A stretch of DNA of 64,000 nt. Origin: Sphaerolaimus hirsutus (taxonomy: Eukaryota; Nematoda; Chromadorea; Monhysterida; Sphaerolaimidae). A model generated the notes under the pieces. It did no database searches. It was not told where the DNA came from and saw nothing but the letters and a program-made list of their open reading frames with translations. A program made the position numbers and the translations under genes. The stretch is from positions 3,847,504 to 3,911,503 of the forward strand of contig OZ038460.1 of NCBI GenBank assembly GCA_964036195.1, written 5' to 3'. Every line of letters begins with the position of its first letter. Within the stretch, counting starts at the first letter, position 1. Below, piece by piece: positions 1 through 63,103 of this stretch.

Positions 1-188
1 AAGAAAGAATTGGGAGCAAAGCATAAAAGGGAATTTACCTCGATTTTAACACCTCTGCTTTTATTCGATGTATTTAGGCATCTATTTTTATAAAGTCTAC
101 CCTAATATTTATCAATATTTATTCAGTTGCCTCAAAATTGATCAACTGCAGTGTCGATTTCATCTTATTATAACACTTTTTTATTATC

Positions 189-412
189 ATGGTTGGTGCT
201 TTTTGGCGCCATTTAAAATGTCGGCGCCAGGCGCCAATAGCGCCACCAGAAAATGGCGCCAAGCGCCAAAAGCGCCATGGCGCTTTCTCAGACCCCAGCG
301 CCAAGCGCCAATGGCGCCAGAGCGTTTTAGCGCCAAGCGCCAAAGGCGCCATGGCGCTTTTTGCTTTGGCGCTAGCGCCAGGCGCCAGCGCCATGGCGCT
401 TTTCCATCAGTA
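189..412. repeat. GGCGCC/GCGCCA word array (family E-like)
   Basis: About 220 bases built almost wholly from GGCGCC, GCGCCA and their complements, so the stretch can fold on itself in many registers. The right edge reads TTTTCCATCAGTA, close to the TTTTCACATCACTA end of better preserved copies at 11946, 45345, 48848, 52003 and 61281. I see no clean left end or target duplication, so this copy is probably truncated. All long frames across it come from the repeat words and are not genes. Confidence 0.75.
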
Positions 413-562
413 ATCAAAAGCGAAGAAAAAAAAAGAAAAAGAAAAAGTACTTTCTCTTCGCTTTCACAATTTCACTTGCCATTTCACTTCGCCTTTGCGC
501 TTTTACTTTGCTTTTGCTATTTATGTCACTTCTCACTTCTCATTTTGCGGAACTGGCACCAG
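413..562. repeat. Right half of a GTGCCAG-ended fold-back element (family B)
   Basis: The stretch is made of iterated TTCACTT, GCCATTTCACTT and CTTTTGC words and ends in GCGGAACTGGCACCAG. That is the same right end as the complete copies at 42513-42745 and 50102-50344. The matching left end is missing, apparently replaced by the GCGCC array. The CACCAG terminus is the one that acts as a splice acceptor when members of this superfamily sit in the receptor gene. Confidence 0.6.
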
Positions 563-2553
563 TTACTTTCCGCATTTTGTCTTTCAGAAACTGAAATAAC
601 AAAAGTGAACACATCTACTCATCCGGAATTTTGAACGGGGCATGCCTAATACGCACATCTGCCCGTTACGCACATTTGCCGCCCGTTTTTTCACTTGACA
701 CTTTTTCAAGTGATGTTCAAAAATGAGTGGAGTGAAAAAAATTTGCGCAATGACATTAGTGAACTTTTTTCACTTCACTCATATCTGAAAATCACTTGAA
801 AAAGTGTCAAGTGAAAAAACGATCAAAAATAGCAATTTTTCACCATTTTTCACTTGACACTTTTTCAAGTGATTTTCAGATATGAGTGACGTGAAAAAAG
901 TTCAATAATGTCATAGTGTGAGCAAAAGTGGGTGTCCAAAAATTGTAAAATTTCAAAAATTTTAAGTGTAAATGTATATATAGTTCACTTAATGAATTTA
1001 TGTAGAGGGTTGTTTACACTTCCGAGCTTACAATAATTTAAACATTTCAGTTCTACTTCGACGATGGTTTTGGGCGATTCGGTGGGCGAACGTGGCGTTG
1101 ACGTTTTCGGCTACGTCGGCAACGGCAACGTGGCACGTGCATTTCCGTTTTTCCGGTGCCCCATTGTGTTATGTGTGTCTTTTTTGGCCAAGGAAAGGAT
1201 TGGAGGTATTGAGGATCTGACACAAAGTTGACGCTGTGATGTAAATAGTTGTTTTTATTTGTTTAGAATTTTTTAATTAGGTAGTTTTTTTAAGAAAGTG
1301 AGACAAGTGAATTGGCAACAATTTTAATTGTGACAGTTTAATTTAAAAGTATTTTTTCTATTTTCTACTAGCGGTTTAGATTGCATAACAAAGTTTCAGT
1401 TATTTTCTCTAAGTAAAAAGAGTGACGCTGCAGTTACGTGTCGTAGTGCGTGAATGGTCAGTGATAACTGAGGGCACATAGGTTGAATTTTGACTAACTT
1501 TCGTTGCATTTTTTTGACGTGAGGGCCGCGGCTATTGATCTAGTATGTACTGTGCATTCCTGCATTTCCGAATTGAGAAACAAAAGTTAATTTACAAGCG
1601 ATTTTACAAAGGTACACTGATTATAGAGGTGCGATGATGATTGGTGTTGAAAATGAGAGGTAATTAAAAGAATCGAGTCTAACTCGACAGGCATGATCGC
1701 ATGTCTAAATGCTTACTCCCTTGGCTTGTTGTGAGAACAGCCCAGTCCGCCGATCTCATCGAAACAAGCACCCATACAGTGACAAGTGTACTTATTTTTG
1801 AGTGAATTGAGCAGTTCGGTATTTTCGGGGTGTGGTTTTTGCACAGTGCGTATGGGATCAAAAAGCCGTGGCTGACTAATTAATATTCTGGTAGCAGAAT
1901 GAGTGGTGTAGCAGCGAGAGTGGTCATTTTCGTGATAAGTGCCTTCGGTAGTTAATGGCTGTTGCGTTTCGGCATGTGGCAGTGGATTCACTTGAGTTTG
2001 TTTTTAGTTTTAAACTTCAAAAAGTCATGCAATCTAAACATGCATTTAAGCTACAAAGATTGAAATTTATAAACTTTCAAGTTGCCAATCATTTGCGTTC
2101 GTATTTCTATTAAGCGTTATACCGACTTCATATTCATTTTAACTTTAGGTTTGGTAGGGAATAGGTAAAACTCGAGTATGTTAATTTTTATTTGATTTTA
2201 CGTTTGCAACTTCGCTATTTTTTTTATCTACCTAATCCTAGATTGATTTTTTTTGTATTTCCTTTTCCCCTAGAAAACTGATAACTTGACATTTGGATAT
2301 TTAGGAATTTATGCAAATTTCGTGGTTGATCTTTATTATACAAAGAGATGAAATAATAAGCCGCTTGTTTTTCCTGTTTTTTCCCCGAATATTTTGATAA
2401 GTGTAAAGGTGATCTGATTTGAGTGCGTATTTATTTTATCACTCTGGTGGAATTTCCGTTAAGCGTCTTTAAAACGGTACCGTAATTCATTTGTTCCTTG
2501 ACAGTCAGTGTGAAAGTTAATTTTGTTCGCCTTACCGGTATCCTAATCTCATC

Positions 2554-2760
2554 ATGGATTATCCCACTTACGACATTTTTTCGTTGTGCATTAATAATAC
2601 GTGTGCTTCTTACGCTTTGGATATCAACGTCATTTTCGTTTATTATACGCTCTTTTTGCTGATGGGATTATTGTTCGCGTGCTTATTTGTTTCGCTAATT
2701 GCTGTGTGTTTCCCCGTTCGTGGAGGAGGTTTTGGGATTTCGGTAGAGTTCGCTGAGTAA
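2554..2760 (+). CDS. Small open frame, 68 codons, one hydrophobic segment (doubtful)
   Basis: It starts with ATG in a fair context (TCATC before the ATG) and encodes a short N-terminal part, then a strongly hydrophobic stretch of about 25 residues (roughly residues 27-52) that could span a membrane. It ends with TAA inside the carried part of family C. I recognise no family. It could equally be chance, or the first exon of a gene whose other exons are not visible. No neighbouring exon with matching phase was found. Confidence 0.15.
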   Translation: MDYPTYDIFSLCINNTCASYALDINVIFVYYTLFLLMGLLFACLFVSLIAVCFPVRGGGFGISVEFAE

Positions 2761-3080
2761 AATTTGAATCGCCCGCCATTTTTTTCGCGCTAAAACAAGT
2801 TTTTACAGTATCTCGTGTGTTTTTCCTGTTCTTTTTATTCTTGTCGCATTCGTTCATTTTCTTATTTTTCTATTTTTATCCTCGCTCTTGTTCCCAACCC
2901 GATTTTTGGCGCGTGAATTCTTTGTGTTTTTGTGTAGTTGATCGACGTATCCTGTAAACTGACGCCGTGAATAATTTTAGGTATGCCCGTTTTAAAATTC
3001 CGTGTGTCCGTAAAGTCGTTTGTAAGCATGCTTCTCGTGGTATGTGGAAGTGTTGTCTGGACTTGGCTTATGTTGTTGCG

Positions 3081-3088
3081 TATAAAAG
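3081..3088 (+). promoter_or_regulatory. TATA-box-like octamer inside family C element
   Basis: TATAAAAG is followed about 35 bases later by TCAGTC, which resembles an invertebrate initiator. Downstream (3250-3275) lie AATAAA-like words. This could be a Pol II promoter carried by the element, but no coding frame follows it. Confidence 0.2.
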
Positions 3089-3685
3089 CGTACCGTAATT
3101 TAGAGTAGGGGTCGATTCAGTCGAAATTGCTTCGGTTTCATTTTCTTGGAGTTTTTTCGAAGGTTTTGTACCGCTGGTTAGAAACTCGCTCTCAGTGTGT
3201 TCCCTGTGTTCTATCTAAATGTGTGAATTCTGAGTCTAAAAAATCGCCTAAAATAAAATCTCTTCTAAAAACTTCGGACCCCTTGGTGTAAATTAGACAT
3301 TCAACTAATTGCTGGTGCGTTGATAAAAACGCCATTCGCTAAAAAGCTAACTTAATTGACGTAGCGTACACCTGTGATATTCACTTCGGTGAATTCACCA
3401 TTGTGCGTTGCGAATTCAATCGGTAGTCGCTTTTCCGTTGCCTTACTTTGTCGCTCATCCAACGAGTAGGTGTGAGATCGGTAAAACTTGGCAATTTGCC
3501 ATAGTGGAATTTGGTTGAGTAAAAAGTAGCCGGTGAAAATTCATGACAATAGCACAACTTTTTTAACTTCACTCATATCTGAAAATCACTTGAAAAAGTG
3601 TCAAGTGAAAAAAACAGGCAAATGTGCGTAATGGGCAGATGTGCGTATTAGTACTACACCCTCTTTTGAACCAGGACCCGGGGAC

Positions 3686-4481
3686 CATGGTTGGTTTTAG
3701 TAAAAATATTTTTACTAAAATTGTATTTTATTTTTATTAAAATTGTATTTTATTTTTATTTTATTCATGTTTCAGTTTATTTTATTTTATTTTATTATGA
3801 AATGTCATTAATAAAATAAAATGAAACCATTTTACAAAAATTTTACAAAAAATCGGAAATCTTGGATGCAAGGACATACTACAATGTGCATGCTAGAAGC
3901 ATGCAGATGAATACCAAAAAAATTTTATTTAAACTTTTGACACGAGTTGTGAGGTAGGCATTTTGTATTTTGACCCTCAGAGGTCCTGGATATATGCATT
4001 GAATTGCTCCTCCCAAGGGAAGATACCTAAAATTTGGTTGTTTTTTTTTGGGTGGGGGGAGGGCTTGCGGGGTTCAATATATAGGCTTTTTCAAGGTATG
4101 GAACGAAGAAAATGGGAAACAAATCACATAAATTAGTGATATTTAAGGTGAAAATATTTTTAAAATGTGAAAATTTGCAATTTTGTGCAACAATATGTTT
4201 CAATCACAACAATGAAAGATACAACAAGGCACTAGTTCTGCAAATTGGCAGCTAGGAACTTAAGCAACATGATCGAAAACTTTCTAAAGAATTTAACAGA
4301 CACTCAAGTTTTTGTAAAATTTTACTAAAATTGTACAAAAATTCGAATTATTGTACAATTTTACTAAAATTTTACAAAAACTCGAATTTTAGTAAAATTG
4401 TATTTTTATTTTATTAATTTTCCATTTTAAGCTCTAATTTTCCATTTTTTTTATTTTTTTGCTGAGATTTTGCCAACCCTG
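3686..4481. mobile_element. hAT-like MITE, family D (CATGGTTGGTTTT / GCCAACCCTG ends)
   Basis: The interior is TTTTACTAAAATTG, TTTTATTTTATT and similar words. The right end is TTTTGCCAACCCTG. The 8 bases before the left end (CCGGGGAC) and after the right end (CTGGGGAC) differ at one position, as expected for an 8-bp hAT target duplication. Sister copies lie at 11940-14638 and 15844-16156. There is no coding capacity. Confidence 0.75.
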
Positions 4482-5046
4482 CTGGGGACACATTCATAAT
4501 AATAAATATCCTTTTTTAATATAGCGACAGTAAACACGAACACAAACAAATGAAAAACCACCGAACCGAGAGATCACAAATTCAATGAAATATGTACACG
4601 CGAATAAGTGAGCAACGAGCATCACAGTGAATGTAAAACCTGTCAATTTTATTTACATACCTACTGAAAATTATAGGGAATTTTTGGGAACTCGGGGTAA
4701 CGAGTGCAAACCCTCCGAAAAAGTTTTTAAATTTTGTGTGAAAACTAGTGTGCGCAGGCACATTGACAAAAGTAAAATACTAGAATGATTGGCGAAATGA
4801 CGTTTATTACACCTGACCTGAAATGTTTGATATTGGCGCCTTGGGGTCATAAATCTTTACAACTATTCAATTTCACATTTAGATTACCATGCATGTAGAA
4901 TTTACATATATGACTGAGTGTTTGACATAATTTTGATAGCGTAAAAGTAATTTTCAGGACAACAAACATATTTTACGCACAAAAAGGATGTAATCCATCC
5001 GATCCAGTGCATTAATCAAGCAAACACGGTAAATATATTTCTGTCA
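4482..5046. other. Receptor gene 3' flank, no other gene seen
   Basis: AT-rich single-copy DNA downstream (on the minus strand) of the receptor stop codon. On the minus strand it holds AATAAA words, the nearest clear one at 4803-4808. I see no other frame or repeat. Confidence 0.4.
4803..4808 (-). terminator. Candidate polyadenylation signal AATAAA of the receptor gene
   Basis: The hexamer AATAAA reads on the minus strand about 240 bases after the receptor stop codon. That is a plausible 3' UTR length. It is one of several such words in AT-rich DNA, so the assignment is tentative. Confidence 0.3.
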
Positions 5047-5297
5047 TCACAAATTGGTTACGCCCATTCCAAAATGGCCCATCTTAATGTGCGTCTTGTC
5101 GTCGATCAGCTCGCAGTGCTGCTCGAGCAGCCTGGCGCTGTCCTGCGTGTTGTAGTCGGGCGCGCTGCTGCGCCGGTACGGCTGGCTCGATGTGGGCGGA
5201 GCCAATAAGTCCATCTCTCTGTGGTGGGGACGGATGGGCGGTGGGCGGATTGAATGTGGTTTTTTGGTCTTGGTGAATTGTGTTGTGTTTGTTGTAG

Positions 5298-5333
<36 letters not shown>

Positions 5334-8300
5334 ATTCACTGGAAAAGTCGAGGGTCGTTTGCATATTCAGATCTGGTGCATATCCGAGACCCTGTAAAAT
5401 GTAAAATGTCATGTAAAGTGTCAAAAGTCATGTAAACTGCCTGGTAAAATGGCACGTTTGCCATTTCACCGGGCATTTTACATGACATTTGATACTTTGC
5501 AATTGCATGCCATTTGGCATTTTACAGGGTCTGGGACTGCCCCCAGATCGCAGCGTCAAAGACTCAAGGCAGCGTTGATGTTCGGCACTATTTTGGCGCT
5601 TTATCCCTCTAAACGAAGCCAAAGCTTACATTAAATATTTTTAATAACTGATCCCATCCCATGAACCACCGAAAAAATGAACCACAAAACGTGAAACATC
5701 CCTTATCACCTGTTCAGATTGCCCCTACTCGGCGACACCACGTTGATAGTCTGAGTCTGCACGGGCGCCGCTCTATAAGCCGCGTTTCTGGTGCCCCGAT
5801 CCGTGGTGCCGCCCAATCTGAGCCGGGGGCAGTCCCAGACCCTGTAAATGCCATGTAAAATGTCAAATGTCACGCAAAGTGTCAGAAGTCATGTAAAATG
5901 CCCTTCAAAATGGCAACCGTGTTGCCATTTTGCAGGGCATTTTACATGACTTTTGACACTTTGCTTGACATTTGACATTTTACGGGGCATTTTACAGGGT
6001 CCGGGATTGACACCTGGTGCCATTCTGCTGGTTTTGCGTGGTGTTGTTTTTGGCGCCGAATTTGCACCGCACCGTGCGCCAGAGTATGGCGCGGAAGCGC
6101 TCCGAGCACACCGTGTACACGACCGGGTTGCACACCGAGTTGGCGTAGCATAGGGCGTTCATGGCCATCACCGCGCTGCGAGATTGTGTGAATTGTGTAA
6201 TTGTAGGCTGTGGGTGCTTGAATTAGGCTTTAAGTGAATATTTAAGTGAATACCTAATTTATTGCCAAACCCCGCGCGGAAAGTTCGCACCCCCCGATTT
6301 TTCCCCGATTCGTATCGTACCCGGTGTGGCTATCAAAAGTACCCAGATATTTCTAAACCAATGTAAACAATTTTCAGCCGCCTAGTTTGACATGCCCCAA
6401 TTGTGAGCCTCGCAAAGAAAATGTGCGTGGACAGAAGTTAGGGCGCGCTTCTGCCGCACTCTCTCAATGTTTTAACGGGAATACTCCCTATGAGGTTGGA
6501 AGCCCCCCAAAAATGTCGAATTCACTATAAATATAAATAAAATAGGCTAAAAATAGGTATATATCCATGTATATAGACGAAAATAGCGATGACGGCAAAT
6601 GGCAACATTTTTAGAGAAAAAAATAAGGGGAAAGTCACTCAAAATTTGTTACGGTGTATCCAAAAATCACGCGAGTTTTGCAACAAAAAAAGTCAAAATC
6701 AGTCCCAAACCCAAATCAACTTTCGCAATCAAACGTTCAATCGACCTGAAACTCTTGGCGATGCCAATGCGAATGTGCAGCAGCTGGGTGAGGAACAGGA
6801 GCTGTATGGGCGAGTAGCACACGAAGTAGATGGCCACGCAGGTGCACAGCAGGCACACTACCCGCCGGCGGACTGGATATTTTTGGGGGTTGGGATTGGG
6901 TGTGGATTGGTGGATGGGTGAGATTGAGTGCGAATTTATGTTGGAGGTTGTTTAAGAAATCAATTTCACAGATTTTTTCAACTTTTTTTGGTGATCGCAA
7001 ACCATATTTCCTCTCACCGCTTAGAAGAAATATGATACCGATATAGGTATAATATTACCAACCACTTACATATCTCAATTGTTACAATCTTGAATGCTTA
7101 AATTCTCCTCTGACTTACTGTAGAAAATTCTGACATTTCAAAAGTAGAAGATACCTATACCTTCCAACTCAAAAAATAGAGAATATCACTAAATAAAAAA
7201 CTTCACCCCTCTCCCCCCAACGCACCAGTCAGCTGATGAAAAAGTTGTTTATTACTCGCACTGTTTGTACAGCGGCCACCCCCAACCAAAGTCACAGTGT
7301 CGCTTTTTGCATTATTTTGATCAAAAACTCTCGCGCGGACTGAAGTGTTCCTAGTAACTTCAGCATCTGGGCAAGTTCCACAAGTGGGCAAGTGACAAAT
7401 AATGTGATAAGTGGTAATTGAAGTAATACGTGGTTCTAAGTTTTAACTCAAGTTAAGTTGAAGTGACAAGTAAACTCGAATATGTGTCAAGCACATTTTT
7501 CTATATACTTGTCACTTCTATGTCTACTTGTCACTCGACTATTTTTATACCAGTTATGACATTACTTACAACTTACTACCTTTATCGTCACTTGTCAACT
7601 TGTGGAATTGGCACCTGTCTGCGACAAGTGATTCAACATGCTCGGGGGAACCCATAGCGCCCTACCCACCATGGAATATCCCCAGAATATTGATAAGCAG
7701 GGTAGGGCATAGTAGATTACCATTTCTAGTAATTTGTACCATGTGGGAGGGCGAGGTTCGGCCGTGCAGATTGGTCTGAGAGTAGGGATTATTTGTTAGT
7801 TGTCATAGATGCTGGGTTTTTATGAAAAAAAGATGGCATAAGAGTGTAGTCACTTTTTCTGTCTGATATTGGAATTTTTGAAATACATTTTCTGTACTTG
7901 GGTACTTTTCATAAGTATGCATAAAGGTGAGTACTGTACTCGGAGTACAAGTACTGATTTTACAGGAAATGTGAATGTACCTATATCTACTCAGTACTCA
8001 AGTATGTGTATTTTTCAGGTTCACGTAGGTAAATACATTTTAAATAACAACTGTTATGCGCTAAGCACTCAGTACACTCGCTGCTTCGAAACCATTCACA
8101 AAAAAAGGAAGATAAACGCCTCACCTGCCGCCAGTAGCGTGGTACCTATAAACGGCGGAATTAATTGCGTAGGGCAACGCAAAAAGTGCGCTGCTCACCC
8201 AAATCGTAGTTACAGTAGCCGCCAGCACCGGCCTGGGGGCACTCCCAGACCCTGTAAAATGTCAAACATCACGCAAAGTGTCAAAAGTCATGAAAAATGC

Positions 8301-10510
8301 CCTGCAAAATGGCAAACGTACGTTTGCCATTTTCCAGGGCATTTTAGAAGACCTTTGACACTTTGCTTGACACTTGACACTTGTCATTTTCCAGGGTCCG
8401 AAAATGGCACCTGGTGAGCAGTCTGGCCGCGTGCAGGGGCTTCTTGGTGGCCACGTAGCGCTCGACGCACACGGCCAGCTGGGTCTGGATGGACGCGTAC
8501 AGGCACACCATGCCCGCGTAGCGGGACGCGGGGCACACCCACGTGGGCCAGAATGTCCACCAGGGACCCCTGCGGGAAGGGGGTTTATGGGGTTGGTTTT
8601 TCGAGGAGCCGATTTCGGGACTTTAAAAAAACTTTTTTTCTTTTTGAATTGCAGGTAACTACCGTATTTACTCCAGGGGGTTTATTTTTCCAGAGTGCAT
8701 ATTTTGTAGGGGGGGGGAGTTAATCGAGGGAGGAGTATTTCGAGAGGTTATTATTTCGCCAGAATTTACCGGAACTACCAGTACTTTTTTGTTGTTTATA
8801 ACGTACGCAGACCTGCGTTTAACCCCCCTCAAATCAAAGTCCGTAACTCAATCATTGTCTTTATCGTGTGTTCTGATTAAGCCGGAGTTACAGCAGAACG
8901 ATATATGGAAGGTGATACGACAACCAAAACGTCTTCATGCAATGACCGTCGACAAATTGATTTTAGGGCATCACCGTGAAATTGATTTGTCGGCGGACCA
9001 TTTTTCATCGAACGTTTTTCTTTCAAATCAGAATTTAACATCTCCCATACGAAATTCGAGTATTGAACATTTATTTTCGATAAAAAACTTGAAAACATGA
9101 AAATAATGGATTTATCGGTGACGTTTTATTTGTCATATCACCTTCTATCAAGGACGTAGCCGGGGGGGGGGGCGGGGGGGGCGGCCGCCCCCCCCCCTTC
9201 CCGGGCCAGACTAAAAATGTGCCAGAAATGGCACTTCCGGAGGATGGTTTTGCCACAATTTGAAAAAATTTTGCGCGCGAGCGCGCATTTTTCTCTCGCC
9301 CAACATATATTTTTGTCTGACCGGTCTCCGCGGCCGAAACGCCAGTGAAAAACCTAAATTCCTGTTCATGTCGCTGTATATTCCTGTAAGATACATACAT
9401 ATACAGCTGTTTTGGCGCCAATACCGACGCCAGTGGCGCCATGGCGTCGCGCCTACGAATGGCGCCAGCGCCATGGCGCCATTCCGTTACTACCGGAGCA
9501 AAATTTGAGGGGGGGGGGCGCCGCCCCCCCCCGTTCGCCGGGCTCCGTATACAATCCGCCCCCCCCGCTCAAAAATCCTGGCTACGTCCCTGCCTTCTAT
9601 TTATCGTTATGCTGTAACTCCGGCTTTACACAGATCACAAACTGCAGTTTTTGACAATTGCACTCTCCTTCACTCATTTTGGGTGGGGCTATTTGAGGGG
9701 GTATATTGCTTCAGCGTGCTTATATCGAGGGGGTTATTTCGAGGGTGTATTTCGAGGAAATACGATATGCATTGAGTCACCGTTTTTCTCATTTCTTTCA
9801 TGTTCACTTCTTCCCTTCGTACTCATCTCTCAAAACAACGAAACAACTACCTAGTTCAATCAATCTCCCCTACCTATTCGCCAGTGTTTGCGTCCAATCG
9901 GGCACCGCCACCAACACGTTGCCCAAATCGGCCAGCGCCAGGTACGCCAACAAGCTGTTCATGATGCCGCGCCGCATCCTCGCAGATGGGAACACCGCCA
10001 GCACTACGAACGCGTTGCCCTGGGGGCAGTCCCGGACACTGTAAATGCCCTGTAAAATGTCAAATGTCATGCAAAGTGTCAAAGGTCGTGTAAAATGCCC
10101 GGTAAAATAGCAACCGTACGTTTGCCATTTTACCGGGCATTTTACATGACCTTTGACACATTGCATGACATTTGACATTTTGCAGTGCATTTTACAGGGT
10201 CTGGGAATGACACCAGTGTCCCAACCACGGCTAGACAGGTGAAGATGGGCCAGAATATGGCAGCCTGCCAAGCGGACAGCTCGCGCCCCGGCGCCACGTT
10301 CGGCAAGCTCGGCAGCGAGCTGTCCGACGTTGATGAGATGTCCGTGAGTCCGCCGGCGCTGGTCGTCATAGAGGAAAATAAATCTAGGGGATTTTCTGAT
10401 GTGTTTAGAAAGGTTTCCCGCACCATGGCGTCCAGTGGGTCGTTAGTCATCGTAGTCATTTTGGCGCTTCTGTGTGAAATTGCCTGTGAATCTTTTGGTT
10501 TAAATTTCAT
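5047..10510 (-). CDS. Rhodopsin-family (class A) neuropeptide-type GPCR, complete, 11 exons, 601 aa
   Basis: A seven-helix cell-surface receptor that should couple a ligand, probably a peptide, to G proteins. Exons on the minus strand: 10510-10214, 10019-9874, 8569-8411, 8232-8125, 7775-7615, 7366-7226, 6872-6746, 6175-6014, 5817-5710, 5608-5538, 5372-5047. Phases agree at every junction and sum to 602 codons with the TGA stop. Landmarks: N-glycosylation site N36; TM1 about 80-107 with N101 (GN pair); D130 in TM2; C160 and E-R-Y 184-186 in TM3, exactly 25 residues from Cys to Arg; W212 in TM4; C240 in loop 2; P262 and Y270 in TM5; P359 in TM6 with CYSP instead of CWxP; NPVVY 396-400 in TM7. 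The tail has an 11-Asn run and ends T-N-L, a possible class I PDZ ligand. The GRALW after TM5 recalls ghrelin/neuromedin-type receptors; the ligand is unknown. Exons 9-10 (tail) are least certain, including the GTCCCAG donor. Confidence 0.9.
5373..5537 (-). mobile_element. Introner: GPCR intron 10 made of family A element in the opposite orientation
   Basis: The intron is 165 bp (phase 1) before the last exon. The element lies reversed relative to introns 1, 3 and 8: the GGGGGCA|GTCCCAGACC end is upstream and GGATATGCACCAG is at the acceptor. The acceptor gives an in-frame join to the long C-tail exon. The donor GTCCCAG is weak and is chosen because it alone keeps phase with exon 10. AGATC flanks both ends and may be a target duplication. 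Confidence 0.65.
5818..6013 (-). mobile_element. Introner: GPCR intron 8 made of family A element
   Basis: The intron is 196 bp (phase 2) directly after the TM7/helix-8 exon. It starts GTGTCAATCCCGGACC. Its element end reads GGGACTGCCCCC, here followed by a short GGCTCAG that supplies the acceptor, where introns 1 and 3 use CCCCCAG directly. The arms carry the usual TGTCAAATGTCAAGC, AAAAGTCATGTAAAATG and GGCAAC words. Confidence 0.85.
6500..6605. repeat. Dispersed repeat (AAAATAGGCT...CATGTATATA) inside GPCR intron 7
   Basis: The stretch with ATAAATAAAATAGGCT, CCATGTATATA and AAAATAGCGAT is repeated with differences at about 10815-10915, outside the gene. Its nature is unknown. Confidence 0.45.
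7367..7614 (-). mobile_element. Introner: GPCR intron 5 made of a second, related fold-back family
   Basis: The intron is 248 bp (phase 1) between the TM5 exon and the intracellular-loop-3 exon. It starts GTGCCAATTCCACAAG and ends CTTGTGGAACTTGCCCAG, an inverted repeat. Its interior is iterated CAAGTGACAAG and TTGTCACTT words, unlike family A. The ends resemble the GTGCCAGTTCCGC ends of family B (42513, 50102), so the splice signals are again supplied by the inverted termini. Confidence 0.8.
7865..8060. repeat. AGTACT/AAATAC word repeat inside GPCR intron 4
   Basis: Iterated GTACTTG, GAGTACTG and AAATACATTTT words end in TAAATAACAACTG. The same words make up 53845-54325 (ending ACGTTTTAACAACT) and 58600-58650. 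No clean ends were found here. It lies inside intron 4 (7776-8124). Confidence 0.45.
8233..8410 (-). mobile_element. Introner: GPCR intron 3 made of family A element
   Basis: The intron is 178 bp (phase 2) between the TM3 exon and the TM4 exon. It starts GTGCCATTTTCGGACCC and ends GGGAGTGCCCCCAG. The arms share the TGTCAAA, AAAGTGTCAAAAG and GGCAAACGTACG words of the other copies, and the loop centre is ACGTACG. Splicing at the element termini joins codon 201 (ACC AG|G) in frame. The donor and acceptor lie at the element ends, not in flanking exon DNA. Confidence 0.9.
8660..9766. mobile_element. TACCGTATTT-ended MITE (family F), interrupted by a hAT-like MITE
   Basis: It begins TACCGTATTTACTCC and ends TTTCGAGGAAATACGATA, inverted copies. 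Near the ends are the family words GGGGGTTTATT, TATTTCGAGG and ATTATTTCGCCAG. The middle (9149-9592) is a separate insertion with its own target duplication. The bases TA next to both ends suit a Tc1/mariner-type TA target. Confidence 0.7.
9149..9592. mobile_element. hAT-like MITE with ...GGACGTAGCC / GGCTACGTCC... ends and 8-bp duplication CCTTCTAT
   Basis: It starts CAAGGACGTAGCC and ends GGCTACGTCCCTG. CCTTCTAT occurs immediately before (9141-9148) and after (9593-9600). The interior holds long C and G runs at both ends and a short GCGCC array (9412-9483). A sister copy with the same ends lies at 34232-34694. Confidence 0.85.
10020..10213 (-). mobile_element. Introner: GPCR intron 1 made of family A element
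   Basis: The intron is 194 bp. It starts GTGTCATTCCCAGACC and ends GGGACTGCCCCCAG on the coding strand, and lies between L99 and G100 in the middle of TM1 (phase 0). The whole intron is a fold-back: the left arm words TGTCAAATGTCATGC, GTGTCAAAGGTCATG and GTAAAATG reappear inverted in the right arm around a centre containing ACGTACG. Removing it precisely restores the conserved GN motif, so it must be spliced. The same family forms introns 3, 8 and 10. Confidence 0.9.
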
Positions 10511-11931
10511 GTAATGTCGGCGGACATTTCACCCTACAAAATCGGAGAGTTAGAATTCGCTCGTGAATAGAGCGAACAACGAAACTTGTGTCCCACGCGG
10601 ACGCTAGAAATTGAAAAAGAAAATCATATTAAAAGAAAAATGGACGTTTCGCTGCGTCCGCGCGTGCCACGCCCTAGTTATCTACATTTTCAACATTGCT
10701 CGTAAAGAATTTGACCGTTCAAACTACCGTTTTACCGTTCAAACTACCGTTTTTGTTTTTATTTTATTTTTCATTCGTTGGCTCCGTTCCAACAAACGAG
10801 AACTTGGCAGCCAGCCAAAATTTCGAAATCCGCTATTAATATGAATAAAATAGGCTCACAATAGCTATATAACCATGTATATAAACAAAAATAGCGATTA
10901 TGAAGGTGGAAATTGGCAAAGCGACGCAAATTTTAACGATTTTTAGCTAACTTTCAGTTTTCACTCTCATTTGTATAATACGCAACTGGTAACTGGGATA
11001 AGAGCCAAGTTTTCATACGTGACCCGATCTATTCCAATCGTTAAAATATTGCGTCACAACTCACAATACCTAATGCCGTCATGCACTCTCCACTGGAGAG
11101 ATTGACGCAAATGTTTGTAGGGCGATACGTCTGCCGACTTTAATGGAGATTTCGTTCAAAGTGCAAAAAAAGTTGAGCCACCGCATTAATTTGCGACGTT
11201 TGAGAGGGAAGTAGGTATACAACAGCGCTTTCACTGTCAGTGCCAAGTAACGATGGCAAACCCTCTGAAAATATGTCTTTTAATTTTTAAGGGTTTTTTT
11301 CTAAAATGACTTTTCAAATTTCGAACTTTTCCAAAAAATATTTTTTGAATTTTCAAAATTAATTTTCGAATTTTTGTTTGCCAGCGTTAGTGCCAAATGC
11401 ATTTCGTGTTTACTCAATTTACAGGTGCTTTTGAATAAAAAATCTACCTAATACTTTTTAGATTGGCTACATGGTGCCACGAATGGATATGACATATCCG
11501 TCCAAATTGCAAGGTTATGTTTAATCAAATTTTTCCTCGCATCGGTGAATATTTCATTCAGCCTATCTTGCCTCCTGCGCATGCTAGTTTACGGCCAAAA
11601 TTTCAGAAAATTAATTTGTTTAAAACGCATTTGAGCTTACAAGGATAACGAATTTTCGATCTCCGTCAACTGTAGTTGGCGGACTCACATCCTAAACCCA
11701 GAGCGCTCAAAGCTGATTTATAAGTTTCCGAAGTTTCCGCTGTAAACTAGTGCAGTGTGTAGGTATATTGGGTGTAGCACCTTTAATCAAAAAAATTTTT
11801 AAACAACGAGATCAGCTGTCTATGTCAACCAGAAATAGTAAACAGCTATTATACAAACTCTAATTCTAATTTGACAAATTCTAGGTGGTTTTAATATTCT
11901 GTCGATAAATGTCAGACATTTTTTCGGACAT
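10511..11931. other. Receptor 5' flank, mostly unannotated
   Basis: On the minus strand this is upstream of the receptor start and should contain its promoter and any 5' UTR exon, none of which I can place. It holds the second copy of the 6500-6605 repeat and one small hAT-like MITE (11248-11389). A direct repeat of about 19 bases around 10711-10750 (ACCGTTCAAACTACCG) is a local duplication. Confidence 0.4.
11248..11389. mobile_element. hAT-like MITE, AACGATGGC family, 8-bp duplication GTGCCAAG/GTGCCAAA
   Basis: It begins TAACGATGGCAAAC and ends GTTTGCCAGCGTTA. The flanking octamers at 11240-11247 and 11390-11397 differ at one base. The interior is TTTTCAAATTTCGAA-type words. Larger relatives are at 44923-46104 and 46706-47863. 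Confidence 0.75.
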
Positions 11932-11945
11932 CTTCGAGGCAGGGC

Positions 11946-13619
11946 TAGTGATGGAATGGCGCCATGGCGCTGGCGCCATTTGAGGGCGCCAAAGGGCGCC
12001 GCGCCATGGCGCCATTGGCGCTTGGCGCCCTTTTTCTGTGGCGCCCTTGGCGCCTGGCGCCCACATTCTGAAAGGCGCCATGGCGCCCTTGGCGCTTGGC
12101 GCCCTTTTTCCGTGGCGCCCTGCTTTAGAAGGGCGCCAAAAAGGCGCCAGCAAGGTTTCACGGTGAGTGCTGTGTAAACGAAAAAAAAGAAAACCGCATC
12201 CGTGGATGATCTAAATTCGCCAGAAAAATGGACTGAGTGGTGTGAGTGGGTGGAACTCTTTCGTCCATAACGGTTCATCAGATCTGTCTGACGGATCAGA
12301 AGACAAGAATGATGGACCGTCTAACTTGCAAAATCATAAATAAATGGATTTAAATCGTTGCAATTAGGAAACATTGTTTGGAAAGTTCTATTTGTAATGA
12401 ATGGATTGTTGTCAAATGACAATTTCCATTACGTTTGAATTCGTCATGTGGATTTTATTCAAAAATTTTTTGTTCCTATCCTTGTTTTTGTCATTATATC
12501 CTGGAGAACGCGAATTAAGATCTGAATGCGCATATAATGGTGCTGGAGAAACATTTTTAGCACACGCATGGTGTTGTAGGCACTTTTTTATCCTGGCGCC
12601 CTTGGCGCCTGGCGCCCTATTTTCCAAATGGCGCCATGGCTAGGGTGGCAGACGGTACGGCCTTGCGGTAAACCGTACGGTACGGTAAATTTTCCATTGT
12701 GCGGTAAACGGTACGGTACGGTAAATCTTCAATTTTGCGGTAAACGGTACGGTACGGTAAATCCCAAAAGTGCGGTACGCGGTACGGTACGGTACGGTAA
12801 ATTTTCGATTGTCAGAAATGTATAAACTACGGACTACAGACAATTTTTACTTCATTAATTGACACCAAATTCAATTACACAATTTGATAATGGACTTTAG
12901 AACACAATAACAATAGGATGACAGAAAATAAAATTACCTGCAATGCAGGGGCTCAATATATAGGAATTTTCAAGGTGTAGAAGGATAAAAATGGAGAAAA
13001 ATTGCTTAAAGTGGGTGAAAAATTGCTAAAAGTAGGTGAAGAATAGTTGAAAATAGGTATATCAGTAACTATAGCACAAAAATAGCTGAAAATAGGCAAT
13101 AAGGCATGAATGCAATTTCAGTGACACCCCATCCCCCATGCGAAATTTAGAAATTTGCGCGCTTGCGCGCAAAAAATTGCAGAATACAACATTAATTGTC
13201 ATGAATAAATTCAACAATTTGAGGTCAATCCGAGTAAAATTTACCGCAATTTTTGCGGTAAATGAGTGCGGTACGCGGTACGGTACGGTAAATTTTGGAA
13301 AATGCGGTACGCGGTACGGTACAGTAAATTTCTAAAAGTGCGGTAAACGGTACGGTACGGTACGGTAAATTTTCCAAAATAGCGGTACGGTACGGTACGG
13401 TAAATTCTGCCACCCTAGCCATGGCGCCCTTGGCGCTTGGCGCCCTCTTTCCGTGGCGCCCCTGGCGCCTGGCGCCCACTTTCTCAATGGCGCCATGGCG
13501 CCCTTGGCGCCTGGCGCCCTTTTTCTGTGATGCCCCTGGCGCTTGGCGCCCACTTTCCGAATGGCGCCATGGCGCCCTTGGCGCCTGGCGCCATTTTTTC
13601 TGGCGCTTTTCCATCACTA
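11946..13619. mobile_element. GCGCC-word hAT-like element (family E), 8-bp duplication GGCAGGGC
   Basis: It starts TAGTGATGGAATGGCGCC and ends GGCGCTTTTCCATCACTA, flanked by exact GGCAGGGC copies (11938-11945, 13620-13627). GCGCC arrays occupy 11955-12145, 12595-12640 and 13418-13612. About 12150-12590 is non-repetitive carried DNA without a recognisable gene. A second hAT-like element is nested at 12641-13417. Confidence 0.85.
12641..13417. mobile_element. hAT-like MITE with CGGTACGG arrays, 8-bp duplication GCCATGGC
   Basis: It starts TAGGGTGGCAGA and ends TCTGCCACCCTA, flanked by GCCATGGC on both sides (12633-12640, 13418-13425). Next to each end is a tandem array of GCGGTAAACGGTACGGTACG-like units, in the same orientation in both arms. 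The middle (12840-13240) is AT-rich without a gene. Confidence 0.85.
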
Positions 13620-13974
13620 GGCAGGGCTGGTTTAAAAAAAATTATTTGTATACAAATTGTATTTTATTTTAATTTTATTCTTGTTTCATTTTTTTTAATT
13701 TTATTCCCAAAAGTCGTTAATAAAATAAAATAACACCAGTTTACACAAAATTTACAGAAATTTTACAAAAATTTTACAAAAAATCGGAATCATACATGCA
13801 CAACCAGAAAAATGTTATCATTATACCTTTACATGAAAAACAAATGTGACAAATTTTTCCATTACTTTACAAAAGCTTCATGCAGTAGGTATTGTTAGCT
13901 AGCTGCAAGTGTAAACTTTACAATGATTGATAGCAATGGTTTCCATTTCCAGGATAAGAACTAAATACTGGAGT

Positions 13975-21228: not shown

Positions 21229-22184
21229 TACTAATGGGTATATATTCATTTTCCTACTAATGTTAAAATTTCTGATAGGTTAGAATGCTTATTTGGGATG
21301 CTTAAATTTATGATCATATCAAGATAGCCGCAATGTATGGAGAAGGTCGGATTGTGCAAACATGCGTTTTCGGTTTTGATTGCTGTTTAATTGTCTCATA
21401 AGTTATCTCACCGTTTCAGTAATGAGACCATAACCTACCAAAGTTAGGTACCTACATTTATGTTACAAAATATTTATTAGTGAGAAATAAAAGTTGAAAG
21501 AAAAGTAAACATAGACTTGAGAAGTAAATTAAGAAGTGAGAAGTATTTAGAATAAATTTGAAGGAAAAAGTTAGTTAACAAATAGCCAGTGACAAGCAAA
21601 TAAAAACAAAAAACAAATAATGTAAACATTTTAGCTGTTATTCTACTTCTTACCAGGGATAAAACGTTTTTTTATTAATTCGGGGAAAAACTTTTTCCTG
21701 ACATCTCGCGGGTATCGACGCACTGCGGCGATTAGATTCGGCGGCAGGGTGTGTGAAGGTGTGTTTAGTGGAAAATGAGCATTGTTTGCTCTTGCTACAC
21801 TACGTAGCGTCTCTGGAAAATGCTTCGGCGACTCCAATGAGACATTTACCGTGCTTGGCATCGTGCCAGCTATACGGTAAAACCATACTACAGTTATGGA
21901 CCTCCGTTAGGAGGGAGTCGCTTTCAAAGTTGACTCTATTGTCGAGACTAATGTCCGACAGCACACCATCACGCGTATACACCGCGTTGTTCTCGGACAT
22001 TGAGTTCCGACTTGATTTGGCATCGTGCCAATTCGTTGAAATGGCATTGTGCCAAGATTACGAAATGCATACCTACAATTGTTACCTACTGCTACCTTGT
22101 ATACATACAATAACCATATTGAAACGCAGATACTCGCTGTTGTCTACGCGTCACGGTTCGACTAGCCGGTACGCGTCGGTCGAA

Positions 22185-24038
22185 ATGTCGGGTGATAATA
22201 AGGACGGCGTCCATAAAACGGTTCGTACATTTTTTGGGGAGATTAGTGTTACGTATAAATGCATTTTATCAGTCTCAAGTACTTTTGTGGGTGCTAAATA
22301 TCTGCGTACACAACGGTCCATTGCATTTGGTCATATAACTCAGGTGGCGAGCACCGGCTTAGTGGCGAGGGCGCTTGCAAGCGATAACGTCGATGCAAAA
22401 ACAGGGCCAAATGTGAGCGATGATGCAAATGTCACTAAAAACCGTCGTAGCCGGGCTTCCAAACCTGTTATTAAATTGTCGCGCAGTCAAGAGGGTTCTA
22501 CACCACAGGGCAGTGCGAGAGGTTTGTGTATTCTGATTTGGAACCTTATAGAACGTTTATGTCTCTTCTCAGACATGTGTAAAAATTTAAAAATGAATAA
22601 AAAAATTTTTGGGCAACATCAAGGGGGATGGTATGCTGATATAAAAAATATGTGGTTTTTAAACGTAGATAAAAACCTGGAACCTGAACGACAGTCCAGT
22701 GATGGCTGTGAGTTAATTGGACCGCTGCCAAGAAATGTACTGAACGACGGCATCGATCCAGTCGAAGAACAAAATATGTTGCAAGATATGTGCGATGGCG
22801 AAGAAGTTGTGGACGACCTGAATTACGGCGTGGGATTCGATCCGCGGTGCATAGTGGGAGGCTATACGGTATCTGGACAGATACAGCTATCAAACGGGCG
22901 GGTTATGGAGCTGGACATCAGAGGTCGCTGCAAAACAGTCGGGAAAATGGCATTGGCAATGGGTAAGCTGACCTTTGAAACGGAATCAGATTTTTTGGGC
23001 AACATTTTTTCTTATGAAGAAAAATTGAGATTTTATATGATGAATTTAATGCAACATACAATAGATGGATTGTTCAAAATGTCAACAAATTTAATAATAA
23101 GATTCAATCAACGCGCAAAAATTGGTTATCTTATAAACAAAGTATTATTTACACTTATTAATGAAAACGCAGGATTTGTGCCAAAAAACCCACTATACGA
23201 TTGGGAATGCGCAACGGCCGATTCATGCAATGGCTATTTGGTCGGGGACACTAAGTTGCATCCATTGGAAATGGCCAATTGTATGATAAAGTGTTTTAAA
23301 ACTACCCCTCTGGGGACCCCAAATGCCATGGAAATTGGTTACATGGCGACCCTGATTAGGGACCTAGAAGAGTCGCGGAACATGCAAGGGGATTTTATGC
23401 GTCACGTAAGTATGGGTAGTTGTTATTACACATTCTACTTGGGTTTATCGACATTGATGATATCTACCCTGAAAATACAATGCATGATATTTTTCATATC
23501 AGAACCATGTACATTGATAAATGATAAAGAGTTGAAATTAGTTGAGCTTATTAACATATATGAATTCATGTTGCTGTCAACTAAATCATGGATTTGGGAC
23601 AACTGCCAAATATATTATACATACTTTCAGCTCGAAGTGGAATGCGCGAATGCCTGCGGGCAACTGAAATTCGAAAATAAGGACATCACTTCGCAAATTT
23701 CTACGCTGGCCGATCGGCTTCAGTTGATTGAAACGGGTGTCAAGGAACTACAAAACGTTGGTTACTGGCTACTATTTTGTATAGATCTCTACAAAGGGTG
23801 GGAATTCAAACCTCAACGGTACTTTTCGTTTTTAATCGGATCATATAATATTATATTTTCGGTTAGGCACACAAATAGACCATTAAACAAACCTATGCAC
23901 ACTCAGAGCCACGCATCGCACGCTGAAGAATCAACTCAAAAATCAGCTATGGCTACTACAAAACGGACAGTCGTCATCGACGGGGGTTACCAGCGCGTTG
24001 TCAAACTTGGCAGCGTGCCAGACGGGGAACACGAGTAG
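22185..24038 (+). CDS. Exon-like blocks of an unknown acidic/coiled-coil protein, open through four intron-like segments
   Basis: I do not recognise the family. From ATG 22185 the frame is open to TAG 24036, and open upstream to 21753. Four AT-richer segments inside look like introns: 22221-22343 (123 bp), 22522-22668 (147), 23406-23630 (225, GTAAGT to TTTCAG) and 23757-23906 (150). Each is 3n long with no in-frame stop, so the frame holds with or without splicing. The exon-like blocks encode a Ser/Asp/Lys-rich N-terminus, an acidic stretch around 22770-22820, and a heptad-like helix at 23660-23757, a likely coiled coil. Near 24000 the better frame shifts by +1: the continuation up to 24126 is open one base later. 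The product could be the ORF1-like, RNA-binding part of a retroelement, or a decayed host gene. Confidence refers to its being coding. Confidence 0.5.
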   Translation: MSGDNKDGVHKTVRTFFGEISVTYKCILSVSSTFVGAKYLRTQRSIAFGHITQVASTGLVARALASDNVDAKTGPNVSDDANVTKNRRSRASKPVIKLSRSQEGSTPQGSARGLCILIWNLIERLCLFSDMCKNLKMNKKIFGQHQGGWYADIKNMWFLNVDKNLEPERQSSDGCELIGPLPRNVLNDGIDPVEEQNMLQDMCDGEEVVDDLNYGVGFDPRCIVGGYTVSGQIQLSNGRVMELDIRGRCKTVGKMALAMGKLTFETESDFLGNIFSYEEKLRFYMMNLMQHTIDGLFKMSTNLIIRFNQRAKIGYLINKVLFTLINENAGFVPKNPLYDWECATADSCNGYLVGDTKLHPLEMANCMIKCFKTTPLGTPNAMEIGYMATLIRDLEESRNMQGDFMRHVSMGSCYYTFYLGLSTLMISTLKIQCMIFFISEPCTLINDKELKLVELINIYEFMLLSTKSWIWDNCQIYYTYFQLEVECANACGQLKFENKDITSQISTLADRLQLIETGVKELQNVGYWLLFCIDLYKGWEFKPQRYFSFLIGSYNIIFSVRHTNRPLNKPMHTQSHASHAEESTQKSAMATTKRTVVIDGGYQRVVKLGSVPDGEHE

Positions 24039-24280
24039 ATCGGTGGCGCCAAAGAGACGAATTGACCTAGGCCTGTCAGCCAGTACACAAGCGAAATGCG
24101 TGCATACCGTTCGGGTGGGAAGTGAGGTGAGCAACATAATTTTGGCCGAATGCCAAGAAATTTCAGATTATGAAAACCATTTATGTAGTAAACTTCTACG
24201 TATACATACATATCGACAACTTTTTTGTAGGGTACGCACGTAAAATGAACACAAAAGTTATCAAATTGTTCTTTACACAG

Positions 24281-34231: not shown

Positions 34232-34694
34232 CAGTGGCGTAGCCATGGGGGGGGGATGGGGGGGGGCGACCGCCCCCCCTTCCGGGGTGAGACCTAGAAA
34301 TGTACGGTAATGTGTTCTCGTGCAACGATTTTGGGGTCAATTTTCAAAAATTTTGCGCGCAAACGCGCATTTGTGCTTCACATTACAGGCATTTTTATAT
34401 CACAGGTCGCGATCGGCTCAAGCTGGGTGAAAATGCGCTCAATTCTGTCGATGTCGCTGTATACGTATGTGTAAAATACATACATTTACAGTGGTCTGTG
34501 GCACCAATGGCGCCATGGCGCGGCGCCTACGAATGCGCCAACACCATGGCGTGGCGCTTACGAATGGCGCCAGCGCCATGGCGCAAGTTCCCTACTACAG
34601 GGGTCAAATTTTAAGGGGGCGGCCCGTTCGCCGGTCTCCGTAAACAATCCTACCCCCCCCCCCCCTACGCTCAAAAATCCTGGCTACGCCACGG
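34232..34694. mobile_element. hAT-like MITE, CAGTGGCGTAGCC ends, 8-bp duplication CTTGCAAA
   Basis: It starts CAGTGGCGTAGCCATGG and ends CTGGCTACGCCACGG, flanked by CTTGCAAA on both sides (34224-34231, 34695-34702). It has G/C homopolymer runs inside both ends and a GCGCC array at 34506-34590. Sister of 9149-9592. Confidence 0.85.
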
Positions 34695-36844: not shown

Positions 36845-37033
36845 GTGCCAGTCCCGGACCCTGTAAAATGCCCTGTCAAATGTCAAATGTCATGCAAAGT
36901 GTCAAAAGTCATGTAAAATGCACGGTAAAATGGCAAACGTACGTTTTAATTTTACCGTGCATTTAACATGACTTTTGACACTTTGCATGACATTTGACAT
37001 TTTACAGGGTCTGGGTCCTGGGACTGGCACCAG
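36845..37033. mobile_element. Intact family A element outside any visible gene, GT...AG ended
   Basis: It reads GTGCCAGTCCCGGACCCTG at the left and GGGTCCTGGGACTGGCACCAG-like sequence at the right, a near-perfect inverted repeat starting with GT and ending with AG on either strand. The arms are the same words as the receptor introns, with the ACGTACG centre. No flanking exons are recognisable, so this copy shows what the element looks like without a gene. Confidence 0.8.
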
Positions 37034-37167
37034 TAAAGCTTGTTTTGTAAAGGTTTGTAAAGAAATGAACCACCAATTCCACAACCCACAAAGCAGCTGC
37101 ATTCACCACGTGTTTACAAGAAATCTGGCCGAAATCCGTGTCAACTGTCCAAGTGCCAGTTTACGTC

Positions 37168-37350
37168 TGGGGGCACTCCAAGACCCTGTAAAGTGCCCTG
37201 TAAAATGTCAAAAGTCATGTAAAATTCCCGGTCAAATGGCAAAGGTATGTTTGCAATTTAACCGGACATTTTACATGACTTTTGACACTTTTGCATGACA
37301 TTTGACATTTTAATGGGCATTTTACAGGGTCCGGACTCCGGGACTGCCCC
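37168..37350. mobile_element. Family A element, GGGGGCACTCC / GGGACTGCCCC ends
   Basis: Same arms and the same altered GGGGGCA end as receptor introns 1, 3, 8 and 10. It lies 135 bases from the previous copy. No coding exon is visible around it. Confidence 0.75.
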
Positions 37351-42512: not shown

Positions 42513-42745
42513 GGTGCCAGTTCCGCAAATTGAAAAGTGAGAAGTAAAATGGCAAACGCGAAGTAAAATGGAAAAAGTGAAGTTTAATGGCAAGTATATT
42601 GGCAAAAGTGAAGTAAAAAAATTAAAAATAAAGTAATTTCTCTTCAGTTTTGCCATTTTACTAACCAATTCACTTCGCTTTTGCCATTTCACTTCGCATT
42701 TGCCATTTTACTCCTCACTTCTCCAGTTGCGTAACTGGCTCCTAG
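42513..42745. mobile_element. Complete GTGCCAG-ended fold-back element (family B)
   Basis: The left end is GGTGCCAGTTCCGCAAATTG and the right end CAGTTGCGTAACTGGCTCCTAG. The arms iterate GAAGTAAAATGGCAAA and its complement. It starts with GT and ends with AG on the plus strand. Its ends are shared with family A, the interior words are not. Confidence 0.75.
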
Positions 42746-50101: not shown

Positions 50102-50344
50102 GGGCCAGTTCCGCAAATTGAGATATGAGAAGTAAAATGGCAAATGCAAAGTGAAATGAGAAGTGAGAAGTGAATTGAGAAGGAAATTGGCAAAAGCGAA
50201 GATAGATTACGTTTTATTTCTATTTTTTACTTCGCTTTTGCCAATTTACTTGCCATTTCACTTCGCTTTTGCCAATTTTCTTCTCAATTAACTTCGCACT
50301 TGCCATTTTACTTCTCACTTCTTAATTTGCGGAACTGGCACCAG
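50102..50344. mobile_element. Complete GGCCAGTTCCGC-ended fold-back element (family B)
   Basis: It begins GGGCCAGTTCCGCAAATTG and ends CTTAATTTGCGGAACTGGCACCAG-like sequence. The arms iterate GAAGTGAAATGGCAAA words. No exons around it. Confidence 0.7.
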
Positions 50345-62731: not shown

Positions 62732-63103
62732 CTGCCATTCCTAGACCCTGTAAAAGACCCTGAAAAGTGTCAAAGACCCTGTAAAATGTCATGTGTCATG
62801 TAAAATACCCTGTAAAGTGTCATGTGTATCCAAATCTTTTCTTATCATATCCAAATCTTATGTTTTTGTATCCAAATCTTACTGTTTACATAAGATTTGG
62901 ATACAAAAACATAAGATTTGGATACAAAAACATAAGATTTGGATACACATGGTACTTTACAGGGTATCTTACATGACATTTGACAACTAACTGGGTCTTT
63001 TACATGACACATGACGCTTTACAGGGTTTTACATGACACATGACATTTTACAGGGTCTTTGACACTTTACAGGGTCTTTTAAAGGGTCTGGGAGTGCCCC
63101 CAG
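62732..63103. mobile_element. Large family A fold-back element with TATCCAAATCTTATG core
   Basis: Left GCCATTCCTAGACCCTGTAA and right AAAGGGTCTGGGAGTGCCCCCAG ends. TGTCATGTGTCATG words form the arms, with ATCCAAATCTTATG repeated in both orientations in the centre as in 13975-14402. It is not in a visible gene. Confidence 0.7.

Follow-up and report, generated by a model that had tools for sequence, protein, structure and literature searches.

The window analysed here, a 64,000-nucleotide stretch of contig OZ038460.1 from the nematode Sphaerolaimus hirsutus, carries on its minus strand (10459-5047) an 11-exon, 10-intron gene for a class A (rhodopsin-type) receptor. The spliced open reading frame of 566 codons has no internal stop and matches 7tm_1 with an E value of 3.8e-30, and all ten introns run from GT to AG, in phases 0,2,2,2,1,1,2,2,2,1. 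This gene model, proposed by an earlier sequence-only reading, was reproduced exactly. The receptor is NPR-15-like: its best matches come from Syphacia muris (35%) and Mya arenaria (an NPR15-like protein, 33%), and an SDTVT stretch that it has in common with both homologues backs exon 6.

Introns 1, 3, 8, and 10 had been described as end-to-end copies of one fold-back element. They do belong to a single family, here termed E1, with approximately 78-87% identity to one another in direct orientation; the element covers most or all of each intron, and its arms are 92-93% complementary in introns 1 and 8. The element ends are also the splice sites in intron 1 (10020..10213; sense, target copies CTG/CAG, 6.3% from the consensus), which lies in TM1 and separates GTL from GNAFVV, and in intron 3 (8233..8410; sense, CAG/CAG, 12%). 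The exact fit does not extend to the other two. The acceptor CTCAG of intron 8 (5818..6013; sense, CAG/CGG, 8.0%) is 5 nt past the mutated target copy, CGG, and in intron 10 (5373..5537; opposite orientation, 14.9%) the donor GT is 6 nt inside E1, with GGGGCA kept in the mRNA, in frame, according to the gene model.

Intron 5 (7367..7614) was correctly assigned to a second family with related termini. It is a sense copy of this family, E2, as judged by its termini; CAG precedes it, and its terminal CAG has 1 nt in common with the element. Eight E2 copies are found in 257 kb, intron 5 among them, and the family search placed two others in the window at 42514..42741 (plus strand) and 50102..50341 (minus strand). 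Genome-wide, the other matches to intron 5 are partial or weak (76% over 96 bp; one of 67% over positions 16-248). The further E1-like copies reported in the window were also recovered by sequence match: one not placed in a gene (36845..37023, minus strand), a degenerate copy (37167..37334, plus strand), and a degenerate, longer copy with CAG on both sides (62732..63100, plus strand).

Anatomy and target sites of E1 and E2

The E1 consensus, the majority sequence of 50 copies, is a near-perfect palindrome of 192 bp, identical to its own reverse complement except at positions 2 and 4 counted from each end, and this lasting asymmetry includes the GT donor. E1 starts with GTGCCA and finishes with CCCC; E1 and E2 have GTGCC as first terminus, and the second is GGGGC in E1 and GGGCC in E2. 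A search for exact E1 left ends with a 31-mer found 278 across the 348-Mb genome, 163 preceded by CAG and 115 by CTG, and the reversed control found none. Hundreds of E1 copies are directly counted, and the total probably reaches thousands. For COX1 of this genome, the best 120 of 7999 hits include unnamed proteins at 89, 79, and 70% and named insects at 64-67%.

Among 40 copies sampled through their exact left ends, 36 have CWG on both sides if a 1-nt shift is allowed, and in 31 of the 36 it is the same CWG. The target pairs are CAG/CAG (18), CTG/CTG (13), CTG/CAG (4), and CAG/CTG (1), the remainder being two other pairs and two copies without a right end; the matching of the pairs is significant over the four CAG/CTG classes (Fisher p 1.5e-5). 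E1 thus has CWG as its 3-bp target duplication and combines this with terminal inverted repeats, as do DNA transposons and MITEs. For E2, CWG is present on both flanks of some copies only. Because E1 starts with GTGCCA and finishes with CCCC, insertion at a CAG target yields CAG|GT...CCCCCAG|, an intron whose splicing would leave no trace. AG is present at the 3′ end of copies with a right-hand CAG (22/40) and absent in CTG/CTG copies (13/40).

E1 copies as putative introns of other genes

One and the same sequence recurs as predicted introns, up to the splice sites, in the receptor and in unrelated genes, as is characteristic of introners. Outside the receptor gene of the window, GT-AG junctions lie within five Pfam domains that score above cut-off (7tm_1, Glyco_transf_92, UCH, I-set, and Sec23_helical), and removal of E1 in silico restores coding sequence in the alignments of Sec23A, which runs across the junction once the copy is taken out, and NDUFS3. 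Most of the AG junction peptides match no Pfam family across the junction, an above-cut-off domain crossing it in 2/20 and 3/21. Open frames in the GC-rich flanks of E1 discriminate poorly: a shared open 75-nt frame was found at 15 of 22 unselected junctions (15 and 11 with the right side shifted by 1 or 2 nt) and at 28 of 29 selected ones (23 and 21 when shifted). Frame agreement among uniquely open flanks (5/6, 5/7, and 6/8 at three widths) is a weak signal, that of the shifted control being weaker. Divergence by codon position in the duplicated copies L024/L044, L021/L033, and L029/L030 involved too few differences to be informative.

The inverted repeats, the CWG duplication, the genome-wide copies, and the domains restored in unrelated genes make it well supported that intron gain here is of the introner type and driven by DNA transposons, which is what the sequence-only reading had proposed from the receptor gene.

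Copies at CTG targets

E1 copies with CTG targets are seamless within conserved exons of NDUFS3, BCKDHA, OSCP1, and Med8, where they would give GT...TG introns. Such junctions fall within seven above-cut-off domains (Complex1_30kDa, E1_dh, Trypsin, Oscp1, Calpain_III, PK_Tyr_Ser-Thr, and Med8), and a domain of this kind spans the junction at 5/9 unselected and 2/4 selected sense loci. In NDUFS3, 80 residues align gap-free across the junction (E 7.3e-41), each of the six AGs that lie between −70 and +45 relative to it shifts the frame, and a genome search matched a single locus, as two halves, and no second one. Antisense introns were considered for the CTG/CTG copies and rejected for those that could be placed, because there the conserved proteins are read in sense orientation; the only inverse copies among those placed are window intron 10 and L048, a copy in a Myb domain. 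Many copies ending in TG seem to be cut out exactly, like those ending in AG. With 14 CTG/CAG pairs and 2 CAG/CTG pairs, it looks as though TG acceptors were maturing into AG ones.

We consider it somewhat probable that the genome harbors a large family of GT-TG introns, in which every insertion at a CTG target is spliced precisely at its TG acceptor, the hairpin probably fixes the 3′ site, and a single T-to-A change matures the intron to GT-AG. A literature search found no report of GT-TG introners in animals. They were previously known in a green alga: the Micromonas IE-B and IE-D families are likewise repeated introner introns with GT-TG ends, although they have 25 and 6 members and very variable length, and target sites were sought for Micromonas introners and none found (PMC3879977, as far as its account goes). 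The same source describes noncanonical TG and CG acceptors, mostly EST-validated, in other Micromonas introns.

That genic CTG-flanked copies are instead disruptive alleles, use other splice sites, or are removed from DNA in the manner of ciliate IESs is rather unlikely. Irrespective of the end dinucleotide, cutting at the duplication leaves a single CWG, just as DNA excision would, and L048, seamless as well, lacks a GT both at its boundary and 6 nt further in. TG 3′ splice sites of human U2-type GT introns, which also have AG nearby, are reported in 36 genes and only as alternatives to AG (PMC2374985, in the portion that treats them), whereas here TG would be the productive site of a repeated family. 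In-frame AGs occur in the scanned range at L051, L054, L064, and L067, with one each at L053 and L041, so TG use is not forced at these six loci. Against this alternative, such copies sit in seven above-cut-off domains, and a second NDUFS3 locus was not found. Divergence from the consensus was measured for eight sense TG copies; at 3-9% it is similar to that of other E1 copies, so they are not fresh. Of 18 placed cases, 16 have the GT end upstream (p 0.0013, a value biased by that orientation having mainly been tested), and TG and CG acceptors are EST-validated in Micromonas.

Origin and spread of the elements

Insertion of transposons into introns is generally common, and the window has copies not placed in genes, so the elements might have landed in pre-existing introns that they happen to fill. 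This is very improbable: in introns 1 and 3 the splice sites fall at the element ends, intron 10 lies wholly inside its element, the CWG duplication directly adjoins both sides of the element in 36 of the 40 sampled copies, and the coding halves of conserved genes (Sec23A and NDUFS3) are separated by the element alone. Equally remote is an RNA-based multiplication in which the elements spread by reverse splicing, a route considered for introner-like elements of fungi. Placed E1 copies are mostly sense, and the symmetrical stwintron-related introns of Hypoxylaceae fungi have near-symmetrical RNAs without target duplications (PMC8469720, in what it says of these introns). E1 differs in having a CWG duplication with matching W; its terminal inverted repeats, its inverse copies, and the copies not placed in genes also speak against an RNA route.

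We therefore prefer DNA transposition. From the observed anatomy, target duplication, genome-wide spread, and in silico seamless coding junctions we infer, with a probability of about 0.88, that E1 and E2 are non-autonomous MITE-type DNA transposons, most like the NuwaI group (PIF/Harbinger relatives), acting as introners. A transposase supplied in trans would insert them at CWG and duplicate it, a step well documented by the flanks for E1 and in part for E2. Given the termini GTGCC and GGGGC or GGGCC, the donor would come with the element itself on the GT strand (CWG|GTGCC), and the final three bases of the intron would come from the duplicated target (CCCC-CWG|). A CAG target would give a canonical GT-AG intron whose splicing returns the original mRNA. 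At a CTG target the same cut would be made with TG as the acceptor, perhaps aided by a hairpin that brings both ends together, and some TG acceptors would later become AG by T-to-A change, as in the CTG/CAG copies.

Known introners are similarly non-autonomous, intron-creating DNA elements with terminal inverted repeats and target duplications that carry one splice site, take the other from the duplication, and in some cases add codons; the account of Gozashti et al. (2022, PMC9860276) that we draw on does not describe TG acceptors or a whole-element palindrome. Amoebophrya introners also form hairpin introns with inverted and direct boundary repeats and noncanonical ends, but these are from a dinoflagellate and their boundaries are described as very diverse (PMC7789003, boundary description), in contrast to the single CWG rule here. 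NuwaI, of the PHIS (PIF/Harbinger) group, is given as restricted to animals, with 5′-CWG-3′ target duplications, which E1 shares, and usually terminal GGG (PMC4482050, in its NuwaI entry). It differs in that autonomous copies encode a transposase and a Myb/SANT protein, for which E1 and E2 are too short, and in that one E1/E2 terminus is GTG, the other being GGGG (E1) or GGG (E2).

Where new introns come from has long been asked, and for animals and land plants together introners are listed from two groups only, both animal (PMC9860276). Here, fresh and decayed copies of one element at CAG and CTG targets occur in one genome. If the TG copies are spliced, an animal, too, would show a large-scale relaxation of the AG rule, acceptor evolution would be directly countable through the CTG/CTG to CTG/CAG series, and intron birth would be caught together with its stepwise canonization.

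With a short terminus pattern, no transposase with E1 termini was found at the three DDE_Tnp_4 loci inspected, and in two of them the family has other termini. An introner within a transposase was considered, since a DDE domain extends over 633 bp and so exceeds its own length by 192, and rejected; the locus has two intervals resembling ordinary introns and no E1 match inside. A PIF/Harbinger-type partner of E1 would have GGGGCAGTCCCAGACC termini and a CWG duplication, and DDE_Tnp_4 genes are abundant in the genome, with at least 163 matches (150 of 306 candidates scored).

The receptor gene and the E1 and E2 families

The spliced model of the class A receptor gene in the window (minus strand, 10459 to 5047) has 11 exons encoding 566 residues. 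The sequence-only reading had proposed a gene with ten introns, and this was borne out, with GT-AG ends at 10/10 and consistent phases. The protein matches 7tm_1 (Pfam, E 3.8e-30), and the top two of five homologues detected come from Syphacia muris (35% identity) and from Mya arenaria (NPR15-like, 33%). The proposal of a single fold-back sequence, E1, copied in introns 1, 3, 8 and 10 also held, as did the assignment of intron 5 to another sequence family, E2.

The genome comprises 348 Mb in 762 contigs, at least 11 of which are 24-34 Mb long. A genome search with intron 1, in which 40 of 4458 first-pass candidates were scored, gave 80 rows, which correspond to 40 loci (the window's included) because the palindrome is listed on both strands. 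The other 39 loci were taken with about 2.2 kb per side; together with the window and a further stretch of 10 kb they made up 257 kb of scanned sequence, which contained 56 paired-end E1 copies. The 192-bp majority consensus, GTGCCAGTCCCAGACCCTGTAAAATG...CATTTTACAGGGTCTGGGACTGCCCC, derived from 50 copies of 160-200 bp, differs from its own reverse complement solely at the second and fourth bases counted from either end, and its RNA is predicted to fold as a single hairpin (-168.6 kcal/mol). One of these two persistent asymmetries therefore creates GT at one terminus. The layout of E2 resembles that of E1: seven of eight copies pair a GTG terminus with a GGG terminus, and some E2 copies, e.g., at L015 and L045, have CWG on both sides.

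Insertion of E1 clearly entails a 3-bp CWG target duplication. Flanking trinucleotides (left/right on the GT strand) in the first set of 56 were CAG/CAG in 22, CTG/CAG in 10, CTG/CTG in nine, CAG/CTG in one, and other in 14; once copies had been filtered by length and duplicated flanks discarded (n=44), the counts were 18, 9, 7, and 1, respectively, for the four classes (p 0.013). Because the 39 loci had been selected by score to intron 1, a second set was chosen by exact left end only. Exact 31-mer left ends occur genome-wide at 115 places with CTG and 163 with CAG, and a reversed-pattern control for these 31-mers found 0 places. Twenty copies of each kind were retrieved. With the right-hand CWG allowed to be displaced by 1 nt, they comprised 18 CAG/CAG, 13 CTG/CTG, four CTG/CAG, one CAG/CTG, two other, and two without a right end (Fisher test on the four pair classes, p 1.5e-5). 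CTG/CAG, the class of window introns 1 and 10, exceeded CAG/CTG by 10 to 1 in the first set and by 4 to 1 in the second, where the numbers are small taken alone.

Protein domains across the insertion junctions

For CAG copies, the element and one CAG were removed in silico, and the joined peptides were scanned for Pfam domains. Among 20 first-set peptides, 7tm_1 (L023) and Glyco_transf_92 (L026) cross the junction above cut-off, FYVE_2 (L046) and Tmemb_cc2 (L038) cross it below cut-off, and a PDZ domain (L020) starts two residues past it. The second-set scan covered 21 of the 22 copies with a right-hand CAG; UCH (L070), I-set (L091), and Sec23_helical (L086) cross above cut-off, and Kelch_6 (L055) stops at the junction. 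L086 aligns with Sec23A (PDB 3efo) across its junction, which reads FDQECAAVLMA|RMACWRA; a single gap of one residue occurs further along the alignment. Frames of at least 25 codons were open on both sides in 20/22 first-set CAG/CAG copies, compared with 29.7% of random points. Frame openness is nevertheless weakly informative, since shifted controls are also open in the GC-rich flanks: 28/29 in frame against 23 and 21 when frame-shifted in the first set, and 15/22 against 15 and 11 in the second. It is the domain junctions that support the putative GT-AG introners.

When the element and one CTG were cut in silico from CTG copies, in the same orientation as the CAG copies, conserved proteins were restored, and introns at CTG targets would run GT...TG. 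Nine of the 13 second-set CTG/CTG loci were scanned, and five gave above-cut-off matches over the junction: Complex1_30kDa (L069), E1_dh (L053), Trypsin (L064), Oscp1 (L051), and Calpain_III (L054). 7TM_GPCR_Srw (L067) lies over the junction below cut-off. The first-set scan took in 5/9 CTG/CTG copies, namely four in sense, two of them with above-cut-off matches over the junction (PK_Tyr_Ser-Thr in L039 and Med8 in L041), and the inverse copy L048. L069 aligns gap-free to NDUFS3 of PDB 5xtb over 80 residues across the junction and is the sole NDUFS3 locus in the genome search, matched as two halves; between -70 and +45 of its boundary there is no in-frame AG, all AGs shifting the frame. L053 aligns to BCKDHA over the junction, and the single in-frame AG within -70 to +45 would insert 19 codons. 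L039 has no in-frame AG in the range scanned, L041 has only one, 30 nt inside the exon, and L067, L051, L054, and L064 have alternative in-frame AGs.

These eight sense copies lie 3-9% from the E1 consensus, and in all of them (8/8) AGs precede the boundary by about 19 and 31 nt (L064: 18 and 30). Human TG acceptors are reported to be used solely in alternation with an AG close by, and the proposal is that AG is inspected early and TG picked late (PMC2374985). With the upstream AGs kept in 8/8 copies, this route is possibly open to E1 copies too. If TG acceptors do function but with low efficiency, selection would favour changing the acceptor T to A, which could produce the CTG/CAG excess.

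The element is reversed in two of the placed copies, L048 and intron 10 of the window gene. For intron 10, using the GT that lies 6 nt within the element would leave two additional codons in frame, and exact removal of the element would likewise preserve the frame. The L048 copy (2221-2412) lies in a Myb/SANT domain (Myb_DNA-binding) that exact removal restores, even though GT is absent at the boundary and 6 nt inside, the GTs within 30 nt being only at 18 and 30 nt inside.

Published precedents and transposase genes

Horizontal transmission of introners is reportedly the subject of a 2025 paper, and the E1 family may already have been reported in print. A 2022 survey describes introners in two groups among animals and land plants, both animal, and also covers introners that add codons (PMC9860276). 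For Micromonas, a further study describes two introner classes with GT-TG ends (25 and 6 members) and 34 further introns with TG or CG acceptors, mostly EST-validated, and its authors term the spliceosome permissive toward newcomer introns (PMC3879977). GT-TG introners are therefore already known from an alga.

CWG duplication, as seen for E1, is the hallmark of NuwaI, a PIF/Harbinger-related transposon group whose termini mostly begin with GGG (PMC4482050). PIF/Harbinger-type DDE transposase genes are plentiful in the genome (163 matches). In one such family (L092, L093), many copies are near-equal in score and two are 98.9% identical across 2.7 kb, so the family was probably recently active. 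E1 termini were not present at the ends of the two transposase copies examined.

The mitochondrial contig and repeats of the window

The last contig (C762, 14.75 kb) is mitochondrial. AGA codons in its COX1 sit at positions that are serine in the COX1 of other animals, so the invertebrate mitochondrial code fits and the host is likely a protostome. Among the best 120 COX1 matches, those with names are insects at 64-67%. Positions 1-5000 are 82% A+T; one strand carries frames resembling nd2 and nd1, the other has cox1 and an atp6-like frame with hardly any gap between, and a tandem-repeat region starts at about 4000; a bacterial-code scan of this stretch found no tRNA. In the window, GC-rich repeats with frames like APWRLWRLAP occur at 9170-9600, 11900-12200, 13300-13650, 34400-34700, and 61000-61500. 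Long open frames at 21700-32300 and 38940-41495, some reverse-transcriptase-like or gag-like by eye, are probably retroelements.
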